Of a stretch of DNA of 64,000 nt, positions 11,205 through 51,337 are shown piece by piece. Positions within the stretch are counted from its first letter, which is position 1, and every line of letters starts with the position of its first letter. The stretch is from Anaerolineae bacterium (GTDB lineage: Bacteria > Chloroflexota > Anaerolineae > Promineifilales > Promineifilaceae): assembly GCA_019637635.1 (NCBI GenBank), contig JAHBVI010000016.1, positions 1 through 64,000 on the forward strand, read 5' to 3'. The notes below the pieces were generated by a model. It was not told the DNA's origin. It made no database searches and saw only the letters and a program-made list of their open reading frames with translations. The position numbers were made by a program, and so were the translations under genes.

Positions 11205-11555
11205 ATGAACAGAGGGCTAAATAAGGTCATGCTAATTGGTTGGGTGGATGGGCAACCCGAAGTGCGACAAACGCCCACTGGCCGAGCAGTAGCAACCTTT
11301 ACGCTGGCAACCTCCCGCAGTTGGACTTCATCTGAAGGGGAGCACCACGAGGAAACCGAGTGGTTTAATGTGGTTGCCTGGGGCAGCCTGGCCGAAATTT
11401 GCGAGAAGCGCGTGGGGCATGAGCAGCATGTCTACGTGGAAGGTCGCTTGCAAACCCGAAGCTGGGAAGATAACCAGGGCCGCAAACATTTCCGCACGGA
11501 AGTGGTGGCGCATGATTTAATTGTTTTGACCGATACTGGAGGTTTATATGAATGA
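11205..11555 (+). CDS. ssb: Single-stranded DNA-binding protein, short form
   Basis: A 116-residue SSB consisting of the OB fold only: [12 protein letters not shown] at the start, WFNVVAWG near 55-62 and [11 protein letters not shown] near 78-88. The protein coats single-stranded DNA at replication and repair sites. Bacterial SSBs normally end in an acidic tail (D-D-I-P-F type) that recruits partners; here the protein ends GGLYE right after the OB fold, so that tail is missing. The 3' end overlaps rpsR by eight bases, indicating translational coupling. A second, tailed SSB may exist elsewhere. Confidence 0.93.
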
Positions 11556-11784: not shown

Positions 11785-13119
11785 ATGACCAAGAAGCAAA
11801 CAAAAACGGTTGGCGAAGACCAACAACGTCAGTCGCGCAAAGAGGTGCTGATCGCTCGTAAGGAACGGGAACAAAAACGAACCATTTATATAGCGACGGC
11901 CGTCGTCGGCGGCATTTTGCTGTTGGTGCTGCTAATAGCCGTTATCAATGAGTTTTTCATCTCCCCCAACCGGGCCGTAGCTGAGGTCAGTGGTGAAGCT
12001 ATTAGCCTGCGTGAATGGCAAGATCGGGTGCGCCTGGAACGCGCGCAGCGTATTTTGTTGCTGGAAAATCAGCTAGAAACGTTTGGCGATGTGGGTTTGA
12101 TCCAGCAGTTTTACGGCCAGTTAATTAACGAACTGCTGCAAACAGAGCAGATGGGGCAGACAGTTTTGAATCAGATGGCGGAAGATGTGATTGTGCTGCG
12201 GGCGGCGCGTGATCGGGGTATCACCGTCACCGATGCCGAGGTAGACGAATCCATTGGCGAGTCATTTAACTATTTTGGCGGTCAGTCACCCACGCCGTTA
12301 CCGGCGCCAACGGAAACGATCATGCCCACGCCATCTATTACGCCCATTCCTACGGCCGTGATCACCGAACTACTGCCCACCAATACCCCCTTCCCCACGC
12401 CAACCCTGGGGCCAACCGTCACGCCGGCGCCCACGGCCACGCCTGTGTCCGAAACCGCCTTCCGTGAACAGCTAAACGATTTGTTGGCCGAGTACCGGGA
12501 TTTGGGTATTTCCGAAGCACAGTACCGCGCCTATGTCCGGTTGCAGCTTTACCGCGAAAAGCTGGCCGATGCGCTGGCGACTGAGTTCAATTTGCCCACG
12601 GCAGCGCCACACGCCAGTTTTTACTTTATGGCCTTTGATGCGGAAGAAGCCGCCAATGAAGCAGCCGCCCTGGTGGAGGAAAATGGCTATCTGCAAACGT
12701 GGAACGAACTGCGCAGCCAGCCATTTGACCCGGAAGCCACGTCTACGCCTATTGTGTCGGAGATATTGTGGCGCACGCAGTCAGACCTGGAGCAAACGTT
12801 TGGCGCGGACGCAACAGCCACTATCTTTGCGCAACCATTGAATGAACCAACGGCCGTCCTGGTGCATCAGGTAGATGAGGAGACCAACCGGTACTACCTC
12901 ATTATGGTGACGGGACGAGAGTCACGGCCGTTGAGTGAGTCTGCCATTAACCAGGCCAAACAGCAGCAGTTGACCAGTTTTATTGACGGCCGTCTCACCG
13001 GCAATCTCACCTTCACCGAGTTTGATCGGGGCCGCACGCCGGAAACGCCGCGCCTCGACCCCATCTTCTACACCGCCCCCACCGCCACCCCGGTAATACC
13101 GGCCACGGCGGCGCCGTAA
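11785..13119 (+). CDS. SurA/PrsA-like membrane-anchored foldase
   Basis: A 444-residue protein with a charged N-terminus (1-35), one transmembrane segment (about 36-58) and a SurA N-terminal-like chaperone domain beginning VAEVSGEAISLREW. That domain is interrupted at about 170-230 by an unusually long Pro/Thr linker. The C-terminal part (about 270-420) is shaped like a parvulin or degenerate parvulin domain, with EILWRTQSDLEQ and YYLIMVTGRESRPL. It would assist folding of exported proteins on the outer face of the membrane. It follows rpsR closely and ends at a hairpin. Confidence 0.72.
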   Translation: MTKKQTKTVGEDQQRQSRKEVLIARKEREQKRTIYIATAVVGGILLLVLLIAVINEFFISPNRAVAEVSGEAISLREWQDRVRLERAQRILLLENQLETFGDVGLIQQFYGQLINELLQTEQMGQTVLNQMAEDVIVLRAARDRGITVTDAEVDESIGESFNYFGGQSPTPLPAPTETIMPTPSITPIPTAVITELLPTNTPFPTPTLGPTVTPAPTATPVSETAFREQLNDLLAEYRDLGISEAQYRAYVRLQLYREKLADALATEFNLPTAAPHASFYFMAFDAEEAANEAAALVEENGYLQTWNELRSQPFDPEATSTPIVSEILWRTQSDLEQTFGADATATIFAQPLNEPTAVLVHQVDEETNRYYLIMVTGRESRPLSESAINQAKQQQLTSFIDGRLTGNLTFTEFDRGRTPETPRLDPIFYTAPTATPVIPATAAP

Positions 13120-38693: not shown

Positions 38694-39578
38694 ATGGACA
38701 ACTTCCTGCTGCAACTGCTCAACGGCCTGGTAGCCAGTATGCTGCTTTTTATTATGGCGGCGGGGCTGTCGTTGATTTTTGGGCAGATGCGGGTGATTAA
38801 CCTGAGTCATGGCGCGTTTTATCTGGTGGGCGGGTATATGGGGCTGACGGCCGTGAAACAATGGAACGCCTTCTGGCCCGCCTTGCTCCTCACCCCATTG
38901 CTGGTAGGGGCCATGGGCTGGCTGGTGGAACGGTTTTTGCTGCGCGGGCGCTACGGCCACGGGCGCTACGGCCGCGAACACCAACTGCAACAAGTCCTGC
39001 TCACCTTCGGCGTGGCCCTGGTCTTGTCTGATCTGGCCGAATGGCGTTGGGGCGCGTATACCCAAACCGTGTCGCCGCCGGCATTCCTGGCCACGGCCGT
39101 GCCCCTCTTTGGCCTGCAATTCCCCCTCTACCGGCTGGCGATTATTGGCATGGGTCTGCTGCTGGCACTGGTGCTGGCCCTTTTCCTGGGGTACACCCGC
39201 CTGGGGGCCATCCTCCGCGCCGGCGTCACCCATCCGCAGACGGTCAGCGGCCTGGGCATTAACGTGGAGCGCGTGTTTGCCGCCACCTTTGCCGGGGGCG
39301 TAGCCCTGGCGGCGCTGGCTGGCGTCCTGGGGTCGCCCATCACCACCCTCTACCCCGGACTGGACTTCGAGATTTTGATCCTCACCATTGTGGTTGTGGT
39401 CATTGGCGGGTTGGGGTCACTGCGCGGCGCGTTTGTGGGCGCGCTGCTCATTGGCCTGACGGACACCTTTGGCAAGGCGCGGCTGCCGGAGTTTTCCCTC
39501 TTTCTGATTTTTGCAGTGATGGCGGCGGTGCTGCTGGTACGGCCGTCGGGCTTGTTTGGGGTGGAAGAGGGTCATTGA
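38694..39578 (+). CDS. livH: ABC transporter permease LivH
   Basis: A 294-residue polytopic permease of the branched-chain amino acid type. Family landmarks are LSLIFGQMRVINLSHGAFYLVGGYMGL (about 22-48) and GLDFEILILTIVVVVIGGLGSLRGAFVGALLIGL (about 220-255). I count about eight transmembrane segments. I chose the ATG at 38694 because the frame further upstream reads through the repeat. Its stop is followed at once by another iterated hairpin. Confidence 0.9.
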   Translation: MDNFLLQLLNGLVASMLLFIMAAGLSLIFGQMRVINLSHGAFYLVGGYMGLTAVKQWNAFWPALLLTPLLVGAMGWLVERFLLRGRYGHGRYGREHQLQQVLLTFGVALVLSDLAEWRWGAYTQTVSPPAFLATAVPLFGLQFPLYRLAIIGMGLLLALVLALFLGYTRLGAILRAGVTHPQTVSGLGINVERVFAATFAGGVALAALAGVLGSPITTLYPGLDFEILILTIVVVVIGGLGSLRGAFVGALLIGLTDTFGKARLPEFSLFLIFAVMAAVLLVRPSGLFGVEEGH

Positions 39579-39580
39579 GG

Positions 39581-39624
39581 AATTGGGTAATTGGGTAATT
39601 GCTCAATTACCCAATTACCCAATT
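39581..39624. repeat. Iterated AATTGGGT hairpin
   Basis: 21-base perfect arms (39581-39601 and 39604-39624) around CT, each arm made of two and a half AATTGGGT words. The sequence lies between livH and livM. It is one of the cleanest members of the family. Confidence 0.9.
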
Positions 39625-39637
39625 ACATATCACACCG

Positions 39638-40642: not shown

Positions 40643-41358
40643 GCCATCGTTTTGATGGGGTGCAGGCGTTAACGGCCGTCAACCTGCACATCGCTCCCGG
40701 TGAACGGCGGGCGATTATTGGGCCAAATGGGGCGGGTAAAAGCACACTGTTTAACCTGATTGCCGGGGCGCCGCCGGTACAAACGGGGCGGGTGTGGCTG
40801 CACGGCCGTGACATCACCCACCTGTCCGTCCCCGCCCGCGCCAATCTGGGGGTGGGCCGCACCTTCCAGCGCAACAACCTGTTTGCCGGGCTGACGTCCC
40901 TGGAAAATGCGCGGCTGGCCGTGCAGCATCGGGAACGGATCAATCGTCATTGGTTCAAGCCTATCAGGGGGTTTACGGCCGTACACACTGCGGCTACGGC
41001 CGTTCTGCAACAGGTCGGCTTAGCCGAACAGGCCCACGTCAAAGCAGGCGATCTGGCTTACGGCCAGCAGCGCGCCCTGGAAGTGGCGTTGGCGCTGGCG
41101 CTCAATCCCCGCCTGCTGCTGCTGGATGAACCCACCGCCGGTATGTCCCCCGCCGAAACGGCCGACATGATCCGCCTCATCCAATCCCTGCCTCGCGACC
41201 TGACCCTGCTCATCGTCGAACATGACATGGATGTCATTTTCACCCTGGCCGACCAGATCACCGTGCTACACTACGGCCAGGTCATTCACACCGGCCCCCC
41301 GGCGGAAGTGCAGGCGGATGAGCGGGTGCAGGGGGTTTATTTGGGGGGTAATCGGTAA
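40615..41358 (+). CDS. livG: ABC transporter ATPase LivG
   Basis: A 247-residue ATP-binding subunit. Walker A is GPNGAGKSTLFN (about 39-50), the Q-loop region GRTFQRNNLF, signature LAYGQQRALEVA (about 146-157, a variant of LSxGQ), Walker B LLLLDEPTAGM (about 168-178) and switch His in IVEHDMD. I chose GTG at 40615, in the last codons of livM; no better start exists. The partner ATPase livF, normally next, is absent: the gene ends in an iterated hairpin followed by the duplicated aminotransferase fragment. Its last four codons, G-G-N-R, are partly repeat. Confidence 0.9.
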   Translation: MDALRVEGLSHRFDGVQALTAVNLHIAPGERRAIIGPNGAGKSTLFNLIAGAPPVQTGRVWLHGRDITHLSVPARANLGVGRTFQRNNLFAGLTSLENARLAVQHRERINRHWFKPIRGFTAVHTAATAVLQQVGLAEQAHVKAGDLAYGQQRALEVALALALNPRLLLLDEPTAGMSPAETADMIRLIQSLPRDLTLLIVEHDMDVIFTLADQITVLHYGQVIHTGPPAEVQADERVQGVYLGGNR

Positions 41359-41427
41359 TCGGTTATCGGTAATCGGTTATCGGTGAAAAGCCTTACCGAT
41401 TACCGGGCACCGATTACCGATTACCGG
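41349..41427. repeat. Iterated GGTAATC/GGTTATC hairpin at duplication junction
   Basis: Left words GGTAATCGGTTATC repeated, right words complementary, about 79 bases. It writes G-N-R-stop for livG on the plus strand and G-N-R-stop for the aminotransferase remnant on the minus strand. Confidence 0.9.
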
Positions 41428-41504
41428 CATCATACTCCGCCGAGGCCAGCTTAATACACGCCGCCACCACCGTCATCGCCTGTTCCACTTCGGCCACGGG
41501 GGGA
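41428..41504 (-). pseudogene. Duplicated C-terminal remnant of the aminotransferase gene
   Basis: On the minus strand it reads P-P-V-A-E-V-E-Q-A-M then V-V-A-A-C-I-K-L-A-S-A-E-Y-D, identical in protein to the end of the intact gene at 48215-48290. The DNA differs at about five of 76 positions. After E-Y-D the remnant continues A-G-N-R-stop and the intact gene G-R-H-P-stop. No upstream part of the gene is present. Confidence 0.92.
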
Positions 41505-41765
41505 TCCTGCTCCAGCGCGGTCTTTCTGGGTCGCTGTGGCCGATCTCACCACCGCGCCACATTCGTTGGCAGCCGCCGGCCCGTCTACGGCCGTTCGCTG
41601 CTTCGTTTTACGGAAGCCGTCCAACTTCGTCGGGATATCTTCCCAACGGCCGGCCGGGTAACTTTCCCAGGCAAAATAAGGCGCCTGCCTCATGACAAAG
41701 GAAGGGGGCATCAGCTACAGTAAACGCAATGGCATCCTTTTGTTGAAGCGTGAGGCAAGCTGACG
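41505..41765. other. Left edge of the island, no convincing gene
   Basis: About 260 bases. A minus-strand frame from 41711 (AWESYPAGRWEDIPTKLDG...) runs into the aminotransferase remnant in another phase; it could be a decayed gene piece. One ACGGCCGT copy is at about 41587. The promoter of the cytochrome gene is probably here. Confidence 0.5.
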
Positions 41766-42653
41766 ATGAAAAACATATTCAAGTGGATTGGCATTATTTT
41801 GGGCAGTGTAATCGTTTTGGTAGCCCTTGCCGCTCTCGCCCTGAGTGTGGCTGGGGAGAGGCGGCTCAACAAGACACATGATGATATTCGGGCCGAAACG
41901 ATCATCATACCCACCGATGATACGGCCGTGGCGCGCGGCGATCATCTCGTTCACGTGGCCTGCACCTCCTGTCACGGACCTGATTTGACCGGCCAGGCAA
42001 TGATTAACGACCCGTCTATTGGCACAGTATATGCGGCTAACCTCACCGGTTTAGCTGAGACGCACACGGAGGCCGACCTGGTACGGGCGATTCGTCATGG
42101 CCTGGATACAGACGGCCGTCAACTCATGATCATGCCGGCCGAGGTGTTCATCTATTTCAGTGAAGAGGACCTGGCGTCCATCATCGCCTATCTGAAGACG
42201 CTGCCCCAACAGGGTAATGAGACACCCAAACCAGCCCTGACCCTGCTCGGCCGTATGCTGGTAGGGGCCGGGCAGTTTGGTAATGTGTTCCCGGCTGAGT
42301 ATATCAACCACGATTTACCTTTTCCGGAAATGCCAACAGTCGGCGCCAATGAGGCTTACGGCCACTATCTGGCCGGGTTGTGCCGGAGCTGTCATGGGAC
42401 GGAACTGGCCGGCGGCCAACCGGGCGAGCCGGATGCGCCGCCCGCACCCAACCTGACACCGGGCGGCGAGCTTCAGGGCTGGACAGAAGAGGATTTCATC
42501 ACGGCGATGCGCACCGGTATGATCCCAAACGGCCGTCAACTAGACCCCATGTTTATGCCCTGGCAATCGGTTGGCAAGTTGGACGATGACGAGTTACGCG
42601 CCCTCTGGTTGTACCTGGCGTCACTCCCACCACAGCAGTCGGCCGTCAAGTAA
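41766..42653 (+). CDS. Membrane-anchored diheme c-type cytochrome
   Basis: A 295-residue protein with an N-terminal transmembrane anchor (about 5-28) and two cytochrome c domains. The haem sites are C-T-S-C-H (Cys66, Cys69, His70) and C-R-S-C-H (Cys206, Cys209, His210). Candidate axial Met ligands lie in MIMPAEVF and MFMPWQS, in the matching place of each domain. It should shuttle electrons on the outer side of the membrane. It is first in a plus-strand row of genes in the island. It does not resemble the fused alcohol dehydrogenase or oxidase subunits. Confidence 0.9.
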   Translation: MKNIFKWIGIILGSVIVLVALAALALSVAGERRLNKTHDDIRAETIIIPTDDTAVARGDHLVHVACTSCHGPDLTGQAMINDPSIGTVYAANLTGLAETHTEADLVRAIRHGLDTDGRQLMIMPAEVFIYFSEEDLASIIAYLKTLPQQGNETPKPALTLLGRMLVGAGQFGNVFPAEYINHDLPFPEMPTVGANEAYGHYLAGLCRSCHGTELAGGQPGEPDAPPAPNLTPGGELQGWTEEDFITAMRTGMIPNGRQLDPMFMPWQSVGKLDDDELRALWLYLASLPPQQSAVK

Positions 42654-42720
42654 AAATGAGGGGCCGCCAGATTACTGGCAACCTTTCACGAGGTCATGAC
42701 CAGAAAAGGTGAAAAACAGC

Positions 42721-43281
42721 ATGAACGGGCAGGTTTTATTATCCGAGCGCCAAATCACAGCGATTCTGCTCATTGCTTGTGGCCTTATTTTTACTGTCGG
42801 CGGCATCCTCTATACCGGCCGGGCCATCTGGCAGTGGCCGGCCAGCGCGACCGCTGTTTATCTGCGCTGGGAACGGGGTAGTGTCATCCTGGCTATTCTG
42901 GTTACTGCCTGGGGATTGGTTCTGCTGGAGGATCTCCTGCGAGCGGCCGGCGACCCGGTCATAGCGCGGTTAGGCATGGTCACTTATCTGATCGGCGCGG
43001 TTGTCGTCATCGTTGCCGAAACAGCCTATCTTTACAATCGCCAGTGGGTCTATTCCCAGACCGTGTTGTATGTGATACTGGCCTTGCTGGCTCAGGCAGC
43101 CTTTGGTCTATCGCTCCTTCAGACCCGGCTTGTGCCGGGGTGGGCCGGCTGGACGGCCCTGATTTGGAACCTGTTTTGGCTGATCGTCTTACCCATCGCT
43201 GCTCGAGATGACATGTACTATCCGGCGCTACATCATGTCGCCCCCTTCGTCATCGGCATTGCCCTGCTTACCTCCAGTTGA
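42721..43281 (+). CDS. Six-TM hypothetical membrane protein
   Basis: A 186-residue integral membrane protein with about six hydrophobic segments (starting ITAILLIACGLIFTVGGILY) and no recognised motif. I chose the ATG at 42721 over a GTG four codons earlier; AAAAGG lies twelve bases before it. The layout resembles small DUF-type membrane proteins found next to sensor genes. It is between the cytochrome and the propeller gene with short gaps, which suggests one transcript. Confidence 0.65.
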   Translation: MNGQVLLSERQITAILLIACGLIFTVGGILYTGRAIWQWPASATAVYLRWERGSVILAILVTAWGLVLLEDLLRAAGDPVIARLGMVTYLIGAVVVIVAETAYLYNRQWVYSQTVLYVILALLAQAAFGLSLLQTRLVPGWAGWTALIWNLFWLIVLPIAARDDMYYPALHHVAPFVIGIALLTSS

Positions 43282-43308
43282 CGGTGCATACCTCCAGAGA
43301 ATGAGCCT

Positions 43309-44301
43309 ATGAATGACAAAATTTTCCTGGCTGCTTTTGATAAAGGGATCACCCGCGCTGAATGTGACCGCCACGGCGATTGGCGCGTGGAACGCCTTAT
43401 CCCCGATCACCAGGTAACTTGCCTGGCGAACAACCCGGCGAACCCGGCAATTGTCTATGCCGGAACCCGCCATGGCGTCTTACGCTCTGATGATTGCGGC
43501 TATACCTGGCGCGCCAGTGGTATGGCGGGGTGGGTCGTCAAGTCGTTGGCCGTTAGCCCGCACGACGGCAACATTGTCTATGCGGGCACAAAACCAGCCC
43601 TGCTGTTTATCTCCAGCGATGGCGGCCAAACCTGGGCCGAATTGGAAGGATTCCGCCGCATTCCCAACCGTTGGTGGTGGTTCTCGCCGGCCGAACTACC
43701 CGACCGGCGTCCCTACGTCTTTGCCATCGCCCCTTCACCGGCCAAACCTGGAACGCTGCTGGCCGGAGTCGAACTGGGGGCGGTGGTGCGGAGTGATGAT
43801 AACGGCCGAACCTGGTCGCGCCACCGGCGCGGCGCGCTCCGTGACTGCCATTCGCTCAAATACCACGCCACCAATAGCAACTGGGTTTACGAAGCCGGTG
43901 GCAGCGGTGGCGGGGCCGCCTTTAGCCAGGATGGCGGCGAAACCTTTCGCAAGGCCAGGCAGGGGTTGGCGAAAAACTATGGCCTGGTTTGTGCAGCCGA
44001 TCCGGAAAACCCGGAAATCTGGTATATCTGCGTCGCCCCCAGCCCGTTTAACGCCTTTGGCAAAGCGCCGGAAATCTATCTTTACCGCACGATGGACGGC
44101 GCAGGCTGGCAGCCCATTGGCTGGCAATCCCACCCACTCCCCGTCGCCGCGACGGTTCTCACGACTATTCCGGGCGCGCCGGGCCATTTATACGCCGGAC
44201 TGGTCAACGGCGACATCTGGCACACGGCCGATTATGGCGATTCCTGGGTGAAAATGCCTTTCAACGTTGCCGGTATCTGGTTTTCGCTGCTTGTTATCTG
44301 A
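43309..44301 (+). CDS. BNR/sialidase-like beta-propeller protein
   Basis: A 330-residue protein with repeats of the form IVYAGTRHGVLRSDDCGYTWR, NIVYAGTKPALLFISSDGGQTWAE and VVRSDDNGRTWSR. The Asp-box (S-x-D-x-G-x-T-W) is plain in at least four copies, as in BNR/sialidase-like propellers and photosystem II stability factor-like proteins. There is no signal peptide, so it is probably cytoplasmic. It is not a glycosidase on the evidence here because no catalytic set is visible. It sits in the middle of the island. Confidence 0.82.
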   Translation: MNDKIFLAAFDKGITRAECDRHGDWRVERLIPDHQVTCLANNPANPAIVYAGTRHGVLRSDDCGYTWRASGMAGWVVKSLAVSPHDGNIVYAGTKPALLFISSDGGQTWAELEGFRRIPNRWWWFSPAELPDRRPYVFAIAPSPAKPGTLLAGVELGAVVRSDDNGRTWSRHRRGALRDCHSLKYHATNSNWVYEAGGSGGGAAFSQDGGETFRKARQGLAKNYGLVCAADPENPEIWYICVAPSPFNAFGKAPEIYLYRTMDGAGWQPIGWQSHPLPVAATVLTTIPGAPGHLYAGLVNGDIWHTADYGDSWVKMPFNVAGIWFSLLVI

Positions 44302-44340
44302 ACTGCTGGCAGAAAGTTCTGGAAAAAATTGAGGTATGCC

Positions 44341-44721
44341 ATGCCCATCACAGCTTCCCGCCAAAGTAAAACCGCCCTGGTGGCCGCGTTGGTCTTTCTG
44401 TCCTGGTTGGGCGCTTATGTCCATACTACCCTCGAATTAGAACTGCCCGTTTGGCGCTGGGAAAACAGCTTTCCGGCGCTGATGGGGCTGGTGTTATTCC
44501 TCGGCTGGTGGAGGCAGCCCCACCGGCGCCGGTTATGGGCCTGGCTGCTGATAGCTTGGACCTTCGGCGCGCACCTCGTAATCGGTGCGCTCCTCTCTGT
44601 TTTGCCTATCCCACTCTGGCCGTTCTATCCTGAGCAATCGCTGGGCCATTACGTTTCCCACCTGATCTATGCCGTAGCCCAGTTACCCCTCATTTGGGTG
44701 CTTTGGCAGGAAATCAAATAG
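44341..44721 (+). CDS. Four-TM hypothetical membrane protein
   Basis: A 126-residue protein with about four hydrophobic segments (for example TALVAALVFLSWLGAYVHTTL and AWLLIAWTFGAHLVIGALLSVL). I chose the ATG at 44341, seven bases after TTGAGG. I do not recognise the family. It is followed 18 bases later by another small membrane-protein gene, so the two may work together. Confidence 0.6.
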   Translation: MPITASRQSKTALVAALVFLSWLGAYVHTTLELELPVWRWENSFPALMGLVLFLGWWRQPHRRRLWAWLLIAWTFGAHLVIGALLSVLPIPLWPFYPEQSLGHYVSHLIYAVAQLPLIWVLWQEIK

Positions 44722-44739
44722 CGCAAAGGATGCCTACCG

Positions 44740-45321
44740 ATGACTAAGACAGCTTTTCGTTGGAGTGGAATCTTCTTAATAGTGGGTGCCTCGCTGCAAG
44801 GGGTGGCAACCGTACTCCTGGCGATGCAACCGGTGATGAACCAACCGTTGTCGCCGGGCATCAGTCTGATCTTCCTGCTGGCCGGGATATTTCTCCTTTT
44901 GTCATTACCGGCCGTCTATGCCCGGCAGGCAAATCGAGCTGGATGGTCAGGTCTTGTCGGTCATGGGCTGCTGCAAACTGGTATCCTTCTGTGGATCGTT
45001 CTGGCTGCCCCACCCCTTCTCTATCCTTCACTTAACCTGATTCCCGGCGAAAACGGGCTGTTTTTTTCCCTGGGTGTAGCCCTCACAATGGGCTTTCTCC
45101 TGACCGGAATCGTAACCATTCGGGCCGAAGTCTTTCCGCGCCGGGCCGGCATCCTGCTGCTGGCGGCCACCGGCGGCTTCTTCTTCTCTTTTTTCATTGC
45201 CGAGTTCCTGCCACCGGTGACCGGGCAGATCGGTTCGGCCACCTTCGCCGTTCTCCTCGCGCTGGCCCTGGCCTGGCTGGGTCGCACGCTGTGGCTTGGC
45301 ACACCTGGGCCAACGCGATGA
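44740..45321 (+). CDS. Six-TM hypothetical membrane protein
   Basis: A 193-residue protein with about six hydrophobic segments, starting FRWSGIFLIVGASLQGVATVLLAM. No motif is recognised. Size and spacing resemble the 42721 membrane protein, but sequence similarity is not obvious by eye. It lies directly before the histidine kinase gene (73 bases). Confidence 0.65.
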   Translation: MTKTAFRWSGIFLIVGASLQGVATVLLAMQPVMNQPLSPGISLIFLLAGIFLLLSLPAVYARQANRAGWSGLVGHGLLQTGILLWIVLAAPPLLYPSLNLIPGENGLFFSLGVALTMGFLLTGIVTIRAEVFPRRAGILLLAATGGFFFSFFIAEFLPPVTGQIGSATFAVLLALALAWLGRTLWLGTPGPTR

Positions 45322-45394
45322 CGACGGCATTGCCTTCGGCTGGACTTTAGTAAGCAGCTTTGTTATCCCGTAAGGACGCCACGAATATGGTAAA

Positions 45395-47512
45395 ATGATG
45401 AGTATGAAACGGCCGTATCAGCCTCAGTCGGCCCCTATGCCCACCATCAATCGGACACCGAGCCGCCTGGCCTGGTCGCTGGCGCTGCTTGCCACTATGC
45501 TCTCCCTGGCGGGGGTGGTGCTGATCGTCTACTTCGCCCTCACCTCCGGCGACATGAGCCATCTCCTTTCCCACGCGGCCTTGAACCCTTTTATCGCCAT
45601 CGTCTACGGGATTGTGGGCGCGTTGGTCGCCTCACGACACCCCCGCAATACGATTGGCTGGATTTTTGTCTCCGTTGCCGTTCTCTCTGCCTTGAATATC
45701 GCGGTTGGGGCTTACGGCCGTTATGCCACCGCCTCCTTGAACATGGGCATGACCGGCCTCGCCCTGGCGAACTGGCTCGGGAGTTGGTTCTGGCTTCCCG
45801 CCTTCTTTTTGCCGACGATATTCGTCTTCTATCTATTTCCCGACGGCCGTTTACCATCCCGTCACTGGGTCATCCCCTTCTGCTCGGCCGCGGCCGGGCT
45901 GTTTATGGTCACCGCCGGGGTAGCTCTCCATCCCGGCCCGCTGGCGTTGTGGAAAACTGGCCCGAACCCCTATGGCCTGCCGGCGGCTGTTGACCTCCTC
46001 AATGTGGCTAATCAGGCTGGAGCTGGGCTGCTAACGGTAGGCTTCCTGGGGGCCATCGCGGCCTTTGGCCTGCGCTTCCGTCGCTCCCACGGCATCGAGC
46101 GGGAACAGATGAAATGGCCCCTTTACGCGCTGGGTTTATTTCTGTTGGGTGTGGCCGGCAGCGCAGTTGCCGGGCTTGTCTGGACAGAGAATCAATGGCT
46201 GCTGGAGTTGAGCATTGCCGGCAGCAACCTGACTGTCCTGGCGGTGGCGGTGGCTGCCGGCATTGCCATCCTGCGTCACCAGCTTTACGACATCAATCTC
46301 GTCATTTACCGCACGCTGCTCTACGGGGCGCTCACGGTCAGCGTGGTTGTTATCTACGTGTTGGTTGTCAGCGGGCTGGGAATCTTATTGCAGGCGCGTG
46401 GCCACCCCGTCATCGCTCTGCTGGCCACGGGGCTGGTGGCCGTCCTCTTTCATCCGTTACAGGAGTGGTTACAGCGCGGCGTCAACCGGCTTTTCTACGG
46501 GGAGCGAGACGATCCCCTGGCCGCCCTCTCTAAACTGGGTAAGCGGCTGGAAGCGGCCCTCGCCCCTGACGTGGTATTACCGACCCTGGTAGAGACGATT
46601 GCCCAGACCTTGAAGCTGCCCTACGTGGCCATCAGCATACGCGCCGGTGAGGAGATTAAGACGGCCGCTGTAGTCGGCAATGAGGTCGAAAACACGCTGC
46701 GTCTGCCTCTGATCTACCAGGGGGAAAAGGTGGGGGAACTGATTGCCGGCGCCCGCAGTGTGGACGAGCGTTTCAGCCAGACAGATCACCATCTGTTGGA
46801 ACACATCGCCCACCAGGCTGGCCCGGCCGTTCACGCCGTCCAGTTAACGGCCGCCTTGCAACATTCACGCTTGCAGATGGTCCGAACGCGGGAAGAAGAG
46901 CGTCGTCGCCTGCGGCGTGATTTGCACGACGGCCTGGGAGCCACCCTGGCTGCCCTGAACCTGGAGGCGGGCGTTTTGCGCCGCGCGATCCGCAGCGATC
47001 CAGAGGAAGCGGAAGCGTTAGTGGATGAACTGCGGCTGGAGATTCGAGCGATGATTGACGATATTCGCCGCCTCGTCTATGCCCTGCGGCCACCCACCCT
47101 GGATCAATTGGGCCTGGTTGTGGCCGTGCGCGCCCTTGCCAGTCAGTGCAGCCGCCCCGGCGAGAATGGGCAGGCCAGCCTGCACGTCCAGATCGAATCG
47201 CCAGAGGAATTGCCATCTTTGCCCGCGGCGGTGGAAGTGGCTGCCTATCGCATCGCCCAGGAAGCCCTGACAAACGTTGTCCGCCATGCCCAGGCCCACC
47301 ACTGCCTGGTTCGTCTTGAGCTAAATGGCGCGCTAAACATTGAGATTGTGGATGATGGTGTGGGCCTCCCGGCCGGCGGCCGCCAAAATGGTGGCCTGGG
47401 ACTCCTTTCGATGCGGGAGCGGGCGGTGGAGTTGGGTGGCGCCTGTGTCATTGAGCCGGCCTCCGGTGGCGGCGTCCGGGTTCTGGCATCGCTTCCCTTG
47501 TCCAAGGCGTAA
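45395..47512 (+). CDS. Sensor histidine kinase with seven-TM-like N-terminus and GAF-like domain (NarX/DesK class)
   Basis: A 705-residue kinase. About eight hydrophobic segments fill residues 25-350, then a GAF-like domain (about 370-480), a HisKA_3 dimerisation helix with REEERRRLRRDLHDGLGATLAALNLE and the phospho-accepting His at about 510, and an HATPase_c domain (N box EALTNVVRHAQA near 630, G boxes DDGVGLPA and GGLGLLSMRERA). It should sense a membrane-associated or redox signal. Its response regulator starts three bases after its stop, so the two are translationally linked. Confidence 0.92.
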   Translation: MMSMKRPYQPQSAPMPTINRTPSRLAWSLALLATMLSLAGVVLIVYFALTSGDMSHLLSHAALNPFIAIVYGIVGALVASRHPRNTIGWIFVSVAVLSALNIAVGAYGRYATASLNMGMTGLALANWLGSWFWLPAFFLPTIFVFYLFPDGRLPSRHWVIPFCSAAAGLFMVTAGVALHPGPLALWKTGPNPYGLPAAVDLLNVANQAGAGLLTVGFLGAIAAFGLRFRRSHGIEREQMKWPLYALGLFLLGVAGSAVAGLVWTENQWLLELSIAGSNLTVLAVAVAAGIAILRHQLYDINLVIYRTLLYGALTVSVVVIYVLVVSGLGILLQARGHPVIALLATGLVAVLFHPLQEWLQRGVNRLFYGERDDPLAALSKLGKRLEAALAPDVVLPTLVETIAQTLKLPYVAISIRAGEEIKTAAVVGNEVENTLRLPLIYQGEKVGELIAGARSVDERFSQTDHHLLEHIAHQAGPAVHAVQLTAALQHSRLQMVRTREEERRRLRRDLHDGLGATLAALNLEAGVLRRAIRSDPEEAEALVDELRLEIRAMIDDIRRLVYALRPPTLDQLGLVVAVRALASQCSRPGENGQASLHVQIESPEELPSLPAAVEVAAYRIAQEALTNVVRHAQAHHCLVRLELNGALNIEIVDDGVGLPAGGRQNGGLGLLSMRERAVELGGACVIEPASGGGVRVLASLPLSKA

Positions 47513-47515
47513 ACC

Positions 47516-48160
47516 ATGAGTTCCCTGACTGTCTTGATCGCTGATGATCACCCCCTCTTCCGCAAAGGGATGCAGGCCCTTCTCAAATCCATGCCCGGTA
47601 TTGAGCTCGTTGGCGAGGCCAAGAGTGGCAAAGAAGCGGTCAGCATGGCCCTGGCCCAACAACCGGACGTTGTTTTGATGGACTTACAGATGCCGGATGG
47701 CAGCGGCCTGGCAGCCACACGGGAACTGAGCCAGAGCAGCCCAACCGTTCGCATCCTGGTTGTCACGCTTTTTGAAGATGACGAATCCATCTTTGCCGCG
47801 CTGCGCGCCGGGGCGCGCGGCTACATCCTGAAGGATGCCGACGAAGAGGAAATGATGCGCGCGATTCGCGCGGTTGGGGAGGGTGAAGCCATTTTCAGTC
47901 CCACGATTGCGTCCCGCCTGATGGAGTACTTTGCCACAACTCGCAGCCTCGTGCCTCAAGGCGTCTTCCCCGAACTAAGCGACCGCGAGCGGGAGATCTT
48001 AACGCTGATCGCCCGCGGGGAGGCGAACGCGGCTATCGCCGAACAGTTGAGCATCACCTTGAAAACAGTCCGCAACCATGTTTCCAACATCTACAGCAAA
48101 TTGCAGGTAGCCGACCGCGCCCAGGCTGCCATCCGGGCGCGAGAAGCTGGTTTAGGCTAA
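47516..48160 (+). CDS. NarL/FixJ-type response regulator
   Basis: A 214-residue regulator. The receiver domain has acidic pair Asp10/Asp11, phospho-acceptor Asp56 in VLMDLQMPDG, Thr/Ser near 84 and Lys in YILKDA (about 106). A LuxR-type helix-turn-helix is at about 148-210 (LSDREREILTLIARGEANAAIAEQLSITLKTVRNHVSNIYSKL). It binds DNA when phosphorylated by the kinase encoded just upstream. Targets may include the cytochrome and membrane genes of the same island. Confidence 0.95.
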   Translation: MSSLTVLIADDHPLFRKGMQALLKSMPGIELVGEAKSGKEAVSMALAQQPDVVLMDLQMPDGSGLAATRELSQSSPTVRILVVTLFEDDESIFAALRAGARGYILKDADEEEMMRAIRAVGEGEAIFSPTIASRLMEYFATTRSLVPQGVFPELSDREREILTLIARGEANAAIAEQLSITLKTVRNHVSNIYSKLQVADRAQAAIRAREAGLG

Positions 48161-48167
48161 GAAGACA

Positions 48168-48211
48168 ACCGTAATCCGACTTCGGGTCACGGATGACGGG
48201 TTACGGATGAC
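48168..48211. repeat. Iterated CGTAATC/CGGATGA words
   Basis: Imperfect heptamers (CGGATGACGGGTTACGGATGACG) after the response regulator. They write R-H-P-stop of the aminotransferase gene on the minus strand. Confidence 0.75.
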
Positions 48212-49457
48212 GACCATCATATTCTGCCGAGGCCAGCTTAATACACGCCGCCACCACTGTCATCGCCTGTTCCACTTCGGCGACGGGCGGGCGGCTGGGG
48301 GCCAGGCGGATATTGCGATTGTGGGGGTCACGGCCGTAGGGATATGTCGCCCCCGCCGGCGTTAACGAAACGCCGGCCGCATTGGCCAGCGCCACCACCT
48401 GGTCAGCCACCGGGCGCGCCGTGTCCAGGCTGACGAAGTAGCCCCCCTTTGGCTCTGCCCAGGTTGCCAGACCAGAGTTCCCCAACTCCTGCGCCAAGAT
48501 GCGGTAAACGGCCTCAAACTTGGGGCGCAGCAGGTTGGCATGATCCTGCATCAGGCCAGGAATGCCGCCGGGATAGAGTTGCAGGAAGCGCACATGGCGA
48601 TACTGCTCCACCTTGTTCGGGCCGATGGATTGCGCTCCCATCAGGCCGGTGATGTACTTCACATTCGCCACGCTGGTGGCAAAAAAGCCCACGCCCGCTC
48701 CGGCAAAGGTCATCTTGGAAGTGGAGCCATACACATACACCCGGTCGGGATGCCCGGCGGCGGCACACAGGTGCAGCAGGTTGGGCGGCGCGGGGTAGTC
48801 ATCGGTGAGGTGATGGACGCGGTAGGCGTCGTCGGCCAGGATGGTGAAATCGGGCACGGCCGTTTCCATACCCGCCAACCGCTGCGCCACTTCGTCGGTA
48901 ATCGTTTCGCCGGTGGGGTTGCTGTAAGTAGGCACAAAAAAGATGCCTTTCACCGCCGGATCACTTTTTGCCAGTCGTTCCACGGCGTCCATATCCGGGC
49001 CATCCGGCGTCATCTCCACCGCGACCATCTCAATGCCCAGCTTTTCCAGCAGGTAAAAGTGGCGGTCATACCCCGGCACGGTCACGATCATTTTGGGTTT
49101 GTCTTGGGCCCACGGCCGTGGGCTATCTTTCAGGCCACGCAGCATGGCCCACATCAGCGTATTGGCCATCAGTTCCAGGCTGGCGTTGTTCCACACCACC
49201 ATCTCTTCCGGTTGGGCATCCAGCACGGTGGCAAAGAGGGCGCGCGCCTCCGGCAACCCGCTGACGCCGCCGGGGTAATTGCGAATATCAATGCCACCCG
49301 GCGTCAACAGCGTGTCCTCATTGACAATGGTCAACATCTCGTTTGAGAGGTCAAAATCGGCGTCACTCGGCTGGCCGCGCTGCATGTTTAGCTTGAGGCC
49401 AAGCCTTTTATAAGCATCATATTGTTCCTGGTATGTGTGCAAATCGGTCACAGTCAA
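48201..49457 (-). CDS. PLP-dependent aminotransferase, aspartate aminotransferase type Ic (PF12897-like)
   Basis: A 418-residue fold-type I aminotransferase. Signature stretches are LNMQRGQPSDADFDLSNEML (about 23-42), RNYPGGVSGLPEARALF (59-75), FVPTYSNPTGET (174-185), LADDAYRVHHL (208-218), and the PLP Lys248 in YGSTSKMTFAG. These match the aspartate aminotransferase group Ic known from actinobacteria. It would make aspartate/glutamate or a related amino acid. The last ~26 codons are duplicated at 41428-41504 across the island. Confidence 0.88.
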   Translation of the reverse strand: MTVTDLHTYQEQYDAYKRLGLKLNMQRGQPSDADFDLSNEMLTIVNEDTLLTPGGIDIRNYPGGVSGLPEARALFATVLDAQPEEMVVWNNASLELMANTLMWAMLRGLKDSPRPWAQDKPKMIVTVPGYDRHFYLLEKLGIEMVAVEMTPDGPDMDAVERLAKSDPAVKGIFFVPTYSNPTGETITDEVAQRLAGMETAVPDFTILADDAYRVHHLTDDYPAPPNLLHLCAAAGHPDRVYVYGSTSKMTFAGAGVGFFATSVANVKYITGLMGAQSIGPNKVEQYRHVRFLQLYPGGIPGLMQDHANLLRPKFEAVYRILAQELGNSGLATWAEPKGGYFVSLDTARPVADQVVALANAAGVSLTPAGATYPYGRDPHNRNIRLAPSRPPVAEVEQAMTVVAACIKLASAEYDGRHP

Positions 49458-49474: not shown

Positions 49475-49511
49475 ATAGAAACCGGGTTTTTGAGAAAAAC
49501 CCGGTTTCTAT
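49475..49511. terminator. ATAGAAACCGGGTTTTT hairpin
   Basis: Perfect 17-base arms at 49475-49491 and 49495-49511, loop GAG. It stands between the nucleoside kinase and the aminotransferase and probably ends the former. Confidence 0.8.
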
Positions 49512-49573: not shown

Positions 49574-49612
49574 TGATTGGAGATTAGAGATTGGAGCAAT
49601 CTCCAATCTCTA
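49574..49612. repeat. Iterated GGAGATT hairpin
   Basis: GATTGGAGATTAGAGATTGG and its complement around CA. The kinase gene's stop TAG lies at its right edge. Confidence 0.85.
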
Positions 49613-51337
49613 TAACAGCAGCCCCGGCTCGTAATGCTCCAAAAGGGAGCCGCCGATGAATTCGCGCAGGATGGAATCGCCGGGAATGTGGGCGCGCAGT
49701 TCGGGGGGCAGGGGGTCGAACCATTGTAAAAAGGCGCGGAGGCGGTTGGCCTCGATGCGTTCGGGGGCGTCTGGCTCCACTTGCACCAGCAGCGGCTCGG
49801 CAAAGGGTTTGAGCGCGGCCAGTTCATACACCAGGGCGGAGTTGAAAAAGACATCAGCGTTGCTTTGGTGCGGGAAGATGTGCCGCTTTTCGCCGCGCCG
49901 CACACTGGGCCAACGGGCAATGGTGTCGGCGGCGGTGTAGCCGCGATGGGTGGCGTCGCGCACGATGCGGCGCAGCAGGCGGGTGTCGGTGGTGGGGATG
50001 CGGTTGTGTTTGTCCAGGTTGAGTTGAGTGAAGGCGGAGATGAAGATGCGGTAGACGGCTTCGGGGGGGACGTTTTGCACCAGGCGGGGGTTGAGGCCGT
50101 GAATGCCTTCGATGAGGATGATATGTTCCGGGCCAATTGTCAACGGGTCGCCTGCTTCGCGGCGGCCGGTGTGGAAATTGAAACGGGGTTGGATGATGGT
50201 TTCGCCTTGCAGCAGTTGGCGCATTTGTTGTTGGAAGAAGGCCACATCTACTGCTTCCAGAGCTTCAAAATCAAACGCGCCGGTTTCATCACGGGGGGTC
50301 TCTTCCCGATTGACGAAATAGTTGTCCATGCCCACCGTGATGGGGCGAATGCCCCGCGCCAGCAGTTGAATGGCCAGCCGTTTGCTGAAGGTGGTTTTGC
50401 CGGCGGAGGTGGGGCCAGAGATGAGGACGATGCGCACGGCCGTGTGCCGTTCGTCTGAACGCCGTTCAGCAATCTCGTTGGCAATGCGGTTCAACTGGCG
50501 CTGGTGCAGGGCCTCGGATACCAGGATGGCTTGCAGGATACGGCCGTTGCTCAATGTCTCGTTTAGCGCCGCCACTTTGGGCACACCAATGAGGGACAGC
50601 CATTGGGCGTACTCTTGAAAGACGCGCGCCAGCACCGGCTCGTCCTCAAACGATTGCAGCACATCTGGCTGGTGGCGGCGGGGGAATTGCAAGATGAAGC
50701 CATTGTTATACGGCCGGAGATCAAACGGTTCCAGATAACTGGTGCGCGGCGCCATAAAACCATGAAAGTAATCCCGTTCGCCGTTTAGTTCATAGAGCGT
50801 CAGGTAATCCTTGCGCCGTTTGGCAAATAGTTCGGCCTTCTCTTCATCCCCCCAATCGCGGAACAGTTGCAGCGCCTCGTCCAACGGCACCCGCACCTGG
50901 TTGATGGGCAGGTCGGCCGCCACCAACTCCCGCATCCGCTTTTTGAGCGCGTCCAGATCAACCTGGGTCGCCCGCACGCCGTCAAATTCACAGTAGTACC
51001 CGCCAAAAGGCATGGAGTGCATGATGGTGATGGTATAGGCTGGGAACAGTTCGGCGGCGGCGGCCACCATCAGGAAAGAGAGCGAGCGGCGGTAAATACG
51101 CGAGCCATCGGAGTCGGCGGTGGTGATGGGGACGAGGTCGGCGTCGGTTTGCAGGGAAATGGAAAGTTCACGCAGGCGGCGATTCATCAACACGGCCACG
51201 GTACGGCCGTGGCCCGGCCGCTCCAATTCGGCGGCCTGCACAAAGGCTTCAATGGGGGTACCGACCGGCGCTTCAAAGGCACGGCCGTCCGGGAAACGGG
51301 CCTGGATGGTCTGGCGGGGGGGGGTGGGGATAACCAT
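49610..51337 (-). CDS. Nucleoside kinase with TGS/SAD-like N-terminus
   Basis: A 575-residue protein. The N-terminus (about 10-75) is TGS-like, followed by a threonyl-tRNA synthetase-like SAD segment (about 85-200, with HSMPFGGYYCEFDG in place of the editing motif). The C-terminal half (about 300-500) is a uridine kinase/phosphoribulokinase fold with P-loop ISGPTSAGKTTFSKRL and DNYFVNREETPRDE. It phosphorylates nucleosides, probably uridine or cytidine; the function of the TGS/SAD part is unknown. This domain order is a known bacterial type. Its start lies in an iterated repeat. Confidence 0.88.
   Translation of the reverse strand: MVIPTPPRQTIQARFPDGRAFEAPVGTPIEAFVQAAELERPGHGRTVAVLMNRRLRELSISLQTDADLVPITTADSDGSRIYRRSLSFLMVAAAAELFPAYTITIMHSMPFGGYYCEFDGVRATQVDLDALKKRMRELVAADLPINQVRVPLDEALQLFRDWGDEEKAELFAKRRKDYLTLYELNGERDYFHGFMAPRTSYLEPFDLRPYNNGFILQFPRRHQPDVLQSFEDEPVLARVFQEYAQWLSLIGVPKVAALNETLSNGRILQAILVSEALHQRQLNRIANEIAERRSDERHTAVRIVLISGPTSAGKTTFSKRLAIQLLARGIRPITVGMDNYFVNREETPRDETGAFDFEALEAVDVAFFQQQMRQLLQGETIIQPRFNFHTGRREAGDPLTIGPEHIILIEGIHGLNPRLVQNVPPEAVYRIFISAFTQLNLDKHNRIPTTDTRLLRRIVRDATHRGYTAADTIARWPSVRRGEKRHIFPHQSNADVFFNSALVYELAALKPFAEPLLVQVEPDAPERIEANRLRAFLQWFDPLPPELRAHIPGDSILREFIGGSLLEHYEPGLLL

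Follow-up and report, generated by a model that had tools for sequence, protein, structure and literature searches.

Duplicated gene 3' ends around an acquired gene block and toxin-antitoxin genes in an Anaerolineae genome

Results and discussion

The window, the 64,000-nucleotide stretch of DNA analysed here, belongs to the 7.49-Mb assembly of our source genome (G000) and holds, in this order, a livG-type ABC transporter gene, a second copy of the 3' end of an aspartate-type aminotransferase gene (AAT), a dispersed repeat (X), a block of seven genes and the intact AAT gene (Table 1). G001 to G004 denote congeners of G000, and G031 a genome of another genus of the same family.

Table 1 Features of the AAT site (window positions) and of the four further gene-end duplications in G000 (C, contig; L, locus; positions of the two copies or of the span)
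Feature	Position	Strand	Remarks
livG-type ABC transporter ATPase, left neighbour of the site	40645..41358	+	PF00005, BCA_ABC_TP_C; orthologue next to AAT in G002 and G001
Left hairpin, word GGTAATCGG	41347..41426	.	Inverted repeat, 31-nt arms; overlaps livG end, gives the remnant its stop
Remnant, second copy of the AAT 3' end, 76 bp	41428..41503	-	Continuous with left hairpin and livG, like the empty site of G002
Repeat X, dispersed intergenic repeat of the genus, between remnant and block	41506..41610	.	Several further matches each in G001-G004 and G006
Horizontally acquired block, extent of G031 DNA homology	41626..48167	+	80% DNA identity to G031 (C186)
Cytochrome c protein, two cytochrome c stretches	41766..42653	+	PF00034; 81% to G031
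190-aa protein, probably membrane	42709..43281	+	No Pfam match; 69% to G031
BNR/sortilin-type beta-propeller protein	43309..44301	+	PF15902, PF02012; 84% to G031
130-aa protein	44329..44721	+	No Pfam match; absent from G031 cluster matches
193-aa protein, probably membrane	44740..45321	+	No Pfam match; 84% to G031
Membrane sensor histidine kinase	45395..47512	+	HisKA_3, HATPase_c; 83% to G031
LuxR-type response regulator	47516..48160	+	Response_reg, GerE; 93% to G031
Right hairpin, GTAATCCG...CGGGTTACGG type	48169..48213	.	Gives GRHP-stop tail; similar hairpin and GRNP tail on G001 AAT
Intact copy of the duplicated 3' end	48215..48290	-	Repeat search and copy alignment
Intact aspartate-type aminotransferase (AAT), host gene	48201..49457	-	PF12897; 92-95% in G001, G002, G004
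fhs	C200, L143 10572-10707 / 11342-11475		Insert: ParE-type toxin, RelB-like antitoxin
gltD	C46 46023-46142 / 46787-46905 (L204 6023-6905)		Insert: PemK/MazF toxin, MazE antitoxin
276-aa gene	C101 66803-66904 / 68544-68645 (L206 6803-8645)		Insert: PemK-type toxin, 75-aa putative antitoxin, alpha/beta hydrolase
Large surface-protein-like ORF	C19, L234 11205-11335 / 12011-12138		Insert: ParE-like toxin, putative antitoxin

The two AAT ends agree at 71 of their 76 aligned positions (93%), all five differences are synonymous, and both encode the peptide PPVAEVEQAMTVVAACIKLASAE. They flank the block as a direct repeat of 76 coding bp. A repeat search of the window returned them as a single 95-bp direct repeat (41409-41503 and 48196-48290; 87% identity, spacing 6787). 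When the window was compared with itself this repeat (E 9e-27) was well ahead of the runner-up (6e-10), most of the others being hairpin words, and with hairpin words and dispersed repeats set aside it is the sole substantial direct repeat present; a search of the whole genome found the AAT-end sequence in two copies only. The right copy closes an intact Asp_aminotransf protein (PF12897, E 9e-190), and on the left the homology to AAT stops at 41503 in unrelated sequence, giving a second junction that is non-homologous. A first-pass annotation had described two AAT ends about 93% identical and coding for the same C-terminal residues, the left a remnant and the right the end of the intact gene, with seven genes between them and with differing tails (AGNR-stop and GRHP-stop); each of these points is borne out, the gene list containing exactly seven genes and the tails reading ...EYDAGNR-stop on the left and ...EYDGRHP-stop on the right.

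The same annotation took the differing tails as a sign that the flanking hairpin has changed since the duplication, which is wrong as stated. There are two distinct hairpins, each with a counterpart on the same side in G001, and the stop codon of each AAT copy sits inside its own hairpin; the tails differ because each copy borders its own hairpin, and not through change after duplication. The right hairpin with its GR(H/N)P tail resembles that of G001 (the tail alone also that of G004), the left one resembles the livG-side hairpin of G001, and G002 has a third hairpin sequence. Hairpins built of short iterated words (GGTAATCGG, GTGATGCG, CGGGTTA and others) are found at 41347-41426, 48169-48213, 39571-39626 and 49476-49511 and at many gene ends; the words vary between congeners at orthologous sites, they can provide a stop codon, and the GGTAATCGG-type word has more than 40 matches in the genome.

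Repeat X has a possible stem (GGCGCGGT/ACCGCGCC) and a defined left end (CCTGCTCC). Since it lies between remnant and block and is found at the AAT site of G001 as well, a genome that lacks the block, the left junction is not simply the edge of the block. We also considered X as the end of a mobile element and rejected this, its other copies being dispersed intergenic repeats, with no gene-end remnant beside any of the 18 X loci checked.

The seven genes have a counterpart in G031, where the gene order is that of G000 and only the 130-aa gene was not found. On both sides of the block the DNA homology to G031 breaks off, at 41626 and 48167, and within it the DNA is 80% identical (proteins 69-93%), compared with 69% at the protein level for the kinase gene that flanks AAT. 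In the other congeners the block was not found at this level of identity, the relatives of its proteins reaching 45-58% at best. On this comparison the block is a unit acquired horizontally from elsewhere, presumably from a related genus, in line with the integrated island of the first-pass annotation, and by its content it is predicted to be a regulated membrane or electron-transfer cluster. A recent foreign signature in composition was looked for and rejected: the GC content is 59% compared with 60% in the neighbouring DNA, and 13% of equal-sized chunks of the genome deviate more in their tetranucleotides.

The commonest 8-mer of G000 is the palindrome ACGGCCGT, a HIP1-like iterated octamer with 3909 occurrences in 1.85 Mb (2.1 per kb). 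Its density is similar in the congeners and in G006, and it is absent from 19.9 kb of G031. The acquired block holds six copies, and as none of the aligned G031 positions has the octamer, these six may have been gained after the transfer.

The layout of the site, an intact gene on one side of the insert and a displaced copy of its end on the other, is the classic one of a site-specific genomic island, whose integrase would have acted on an attachment site within the 3' end of AAT before being lost. The annotation had suggested looking for an integrase or an attachment-type sequence, and no such machinery was found: Pfam and tRNA checks of the insert revealed no integrase, transposase, tRNA or excision gene in or at the block. 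Moreover, the scar is shared by five genes that are unrelated to one another and whose cargo is unrelated too (see below), and we regard an island of this kind as very improbable. The repeat search likewise gave no inverted-repeat pair bounding the block of the sort that marks an insertion sequence or a composite transposon.

Comparison with the congeners revealed three states of the AAT site. In G002 (contig JAHDWK010000015.1) it is empty, as the annotation had anticipated for a sister genome: livG and AAT are joined by one hairpin with about 54 bp between the genes and a single copy of the repeated sequence, and the order of AAT, the kinase gene behind it (udk-type, 49610-51337 in the window) and livK-H-M-G is kept. 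In the closest congener G001 (JABFFZ010000081.1; AAT 95% identical) livG and AAT are split by 1.4 kb containing a gene for a Transposase_31 (YhgA/Rpn-type) nuclease and no seven-gene block; next to livG, a hairpin resembling the one in G000 is followed by only 8 bases of the AAT end (CATCATAC), and these by repeat X. The third state is that of G000. Neisseria minimal mobile elements also have differing cargo between the same conserved neighbours, as the empty, nuclease and seven-gene states do here, but their definition does not include a gene-end remnant, which is present at the AAT site.

The 299 contigs and the estimated contamination of 8% of the G000 assembly would leave room for a chimera of two strains within a metagenome bin. 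We hold this to be extremely improbable, because G001, an independent assembly, also splits livG from AAT and has the same hairpins, and because the junctions do not lie in an exact repeat (the longest exact run common to the two AAT ends is about 32 bp). Nor is the duplication a common trait of AAT loci, since it is absent from 33 of the 34 related loci surveyed. At the remaining locus (L084, 11195-11321) 54 bp of the AAT end are repeated exactly and in tandem, but the copy runs into a gap of Ns and is probably an assembly artefact. In G004 (L036, 9116-10369) the aminotransferase gene lies away from the liv and kinase genes; the context of AAT is thus not conserved across the genus.

When the two AAT ends were set against those of G001, G002 and G004, three changes were seen in the right copy only and one in the left copy only; the right copy also has one state in common with G004 alone. 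We estimate the chance of such a pattern under simple drift at about 0.02, a figure based on small counts and on 76 free and about 25 synonymous sites. A freely drifting remnant should change more than a constrained gene and the opposite is seen, which favours the view that the two ends are alleles that diverged as genes and were brought together by recombination. The little-changed remnant also argues against a duplication older than the split of G000 and G001. Yet the presence of both hairpins and of X at the site in G001 suggests that the two ends were separated before these genomes diverged, and this sits badly with the youth of the remnant.

These observations also bear on a two-step history, in which a tandem duplication of the AAT 3' end came first and the space between its two copies was filled afterwards, by X, by the nuclease gene in G001 and by the seven-gene block in G000. 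It would account for a livG/AAT split, hairpins on both sides and X being common to G000 and G001 while the cargo differs. Nevertheless, none of the congeners examined has two adjacent AAT ends, the remnant has changed too little for the event to be old, and four other genes would require the same two-step history, so that we consider it unlikely.

We surveyed 1.85 Mb of the 7.49 Mb of G000, a quarter of the genome, for low-copy direct repeats that pair a gene end with a copy lying outside the gene in question. Four clear cases were found in addition to AAT, at genes that we take from their sequences, and not from a database assignment, to be fhs and gltD, and at one gene each on contigs C101 and C19 (Table 1). 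All four inserts contain a toxin gene of a type II toxin-antitoxin family with a putative antitoxin gene alongside. The gene-end copies measure 92-122 bp at these four sites (coding part 76-122 bp over all five), and the remnant lies downstream of the intact gene at five of five sites. The C19 case is the weakest of the four, as a third similar sequence exists. No clear two-copy case of this kind was seen at a gene 5' end in the 1.85 Mb, and no further clear gene-end case in 0.89 Mb of fetched congener loci, which had been chosen for other reasons and were searched with no copy-number filter.

The further sites also occur in different versions among the relatives. For fhs, the gene end runs straight into the downstream gene in G004 and G003, the arrangement found on the remnant side, and G004 shows it as an empty site; in G002 gene, hairpin and antitoxin gene are joined as on the gene side and there is no remnant. 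The G000 remnant has states in common with G004, the present gene end with other congeners. For gltD, G001 and G003 have the gene and the toxin-antitoxin pair at the same junction without a remnant, and the C101 site is empty in G005 and contains the hydrolase gene and the remnant in G002 and G003. The gene-side junction is thus shared with relatives at fhs and gltD; at AAT only the hairpin and the tail are shared, with G001. Crossovers between strains with differing versions of these sites offer the easiest explanation of this mosaic. Downstream of fhs, and at varying distance from it, a toxin-antitoxin cassette with common ends is found in G000 (L143, 10760-11290), G001 (L201, 3932-4462) and G002 (L199, 11642-11934), the last lacking most of the toxin gene.

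We lean towards the view that the foreign block was inserted at the AAT 3' end by one-sided homologous recombination. The incoming DNA would have consisted of an AAT end followed by foreign downstream DNA. Its AAT end would have recombined with the resident AAT through their shared homology, and its other end would have been joined, without homology, at a point in the resident gene some 76 bp short of the stop codon. AAT itself would stay whole, its end arriving with the incoming DNA, and the resident gene end would be displaced to the far side of the insert to become the remnant. One homologous crossover and one illegitimate join would together account for the intact gene, for the remnant and its direction, and for the differences between the alleles. 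The first-pass annotation had already proposed recombination within the gene end, and this fits. We infer both steps, as well as transformation as the route of entry and the origin of the two AAT ends in different strains, from sequence comparison. The genome encodes ComEC (E 2e-56) and a search for Ku gave no match, and with these two results transformation would fit better than end joining. Because the left junction of G000 recurs in part in G001, beside different cargo, the seven-gene block may have entered later than the first duplication. A donor with the exact AAT junction was not found among the relatives examined, and the similar length of the copies at the five sites (76-122 bp) is not required by one-sided recombination and speaks against it.

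This similar length would agree with both copies having been made from the target when the insert arrived. Such target duplication would also agree with the duplications of the order of 100 bp published for restriction-modification units (PMC3874152). We nevertheless think it rather unlikely, given the absence of a Ku match, the finding that at AAT the coding copy has changed more than the free remnant, the different affinities of remnant and gene end at fhs, and the gltD insert without remnant in two congeners. We give a small chance to a dedicated or strongly biased process of this genus that would spread small addictive modules and other cargo by inserting at gene 3' ends, rebuilding the end and leaving copies of about 75-125 bp, with toxin-antitoxin pairs as the main passengers.

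As a pattern, irrespective of its mechanism, the AAT site matches what is known as insertion with long target duplication (Nobusato et al. 2000; Furuta et al. 2010). This was described for restriction-modification units, first in Helicobacter pylori (PMC3874152, PMC1643837), the duplicated stretch being of the order of 100 bp (PMC3874152, PMC1643837, PMC3031569). Common to those accounts and the AAT site are a transposase-free block, a direct repeat of variable length of that order, and recognition against the empty site of a relative. Unlike in the restriction-modification cases, the cargo here is a seven-gene cluster at AAT and toxin-antitoxin genes at the other four sites, and the insertions are in a Chloroflexota genus and always at gene 3' ends. 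A partial literature search at the level of titles and abstracts revealed no report of toxin-antitoxin modules moving in this way.

The combination of one homologous and one non-homologous join is also known from homology-facilitated illegitimate recombination, and in laboratory conjugation of E. coli single crossovers that involved a partly deleted gene end yielded duplicated lacZ ends of 109-950 bp (PMC3240628), whereas the process proposed here is read from sequence with the donor unseen. The same logic has been proposed for displaced type VI secretion (T6SS) effector genes of Vibrio, where a conserved upstream part serves as anchor and the old downstream part is pushed past the new insert (PMC5361080). 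In contrast to Vibrio, the host genes in G000 are mostly housekeeping genes whose protein is unchanged, and the remnant has no evident function.

Conclusions

How gene blocks and toxin-antitoxin pairs settle in chromosomes without a recombinase is poorly understood. The scar at AAT is the trace of gene gain by a route that involves no integrase and whose kind has been described before; the more interesting part is the series of such sites in one genus, with toxin-antitoxin genes as cargo, a series that rests on five cases. These five sites come from a quarter of one genome, and sister genomes contain empty, filled and remnant-free versions of them, so that target duplication and crossover with a donor gene end can be told apart by sequence alone.
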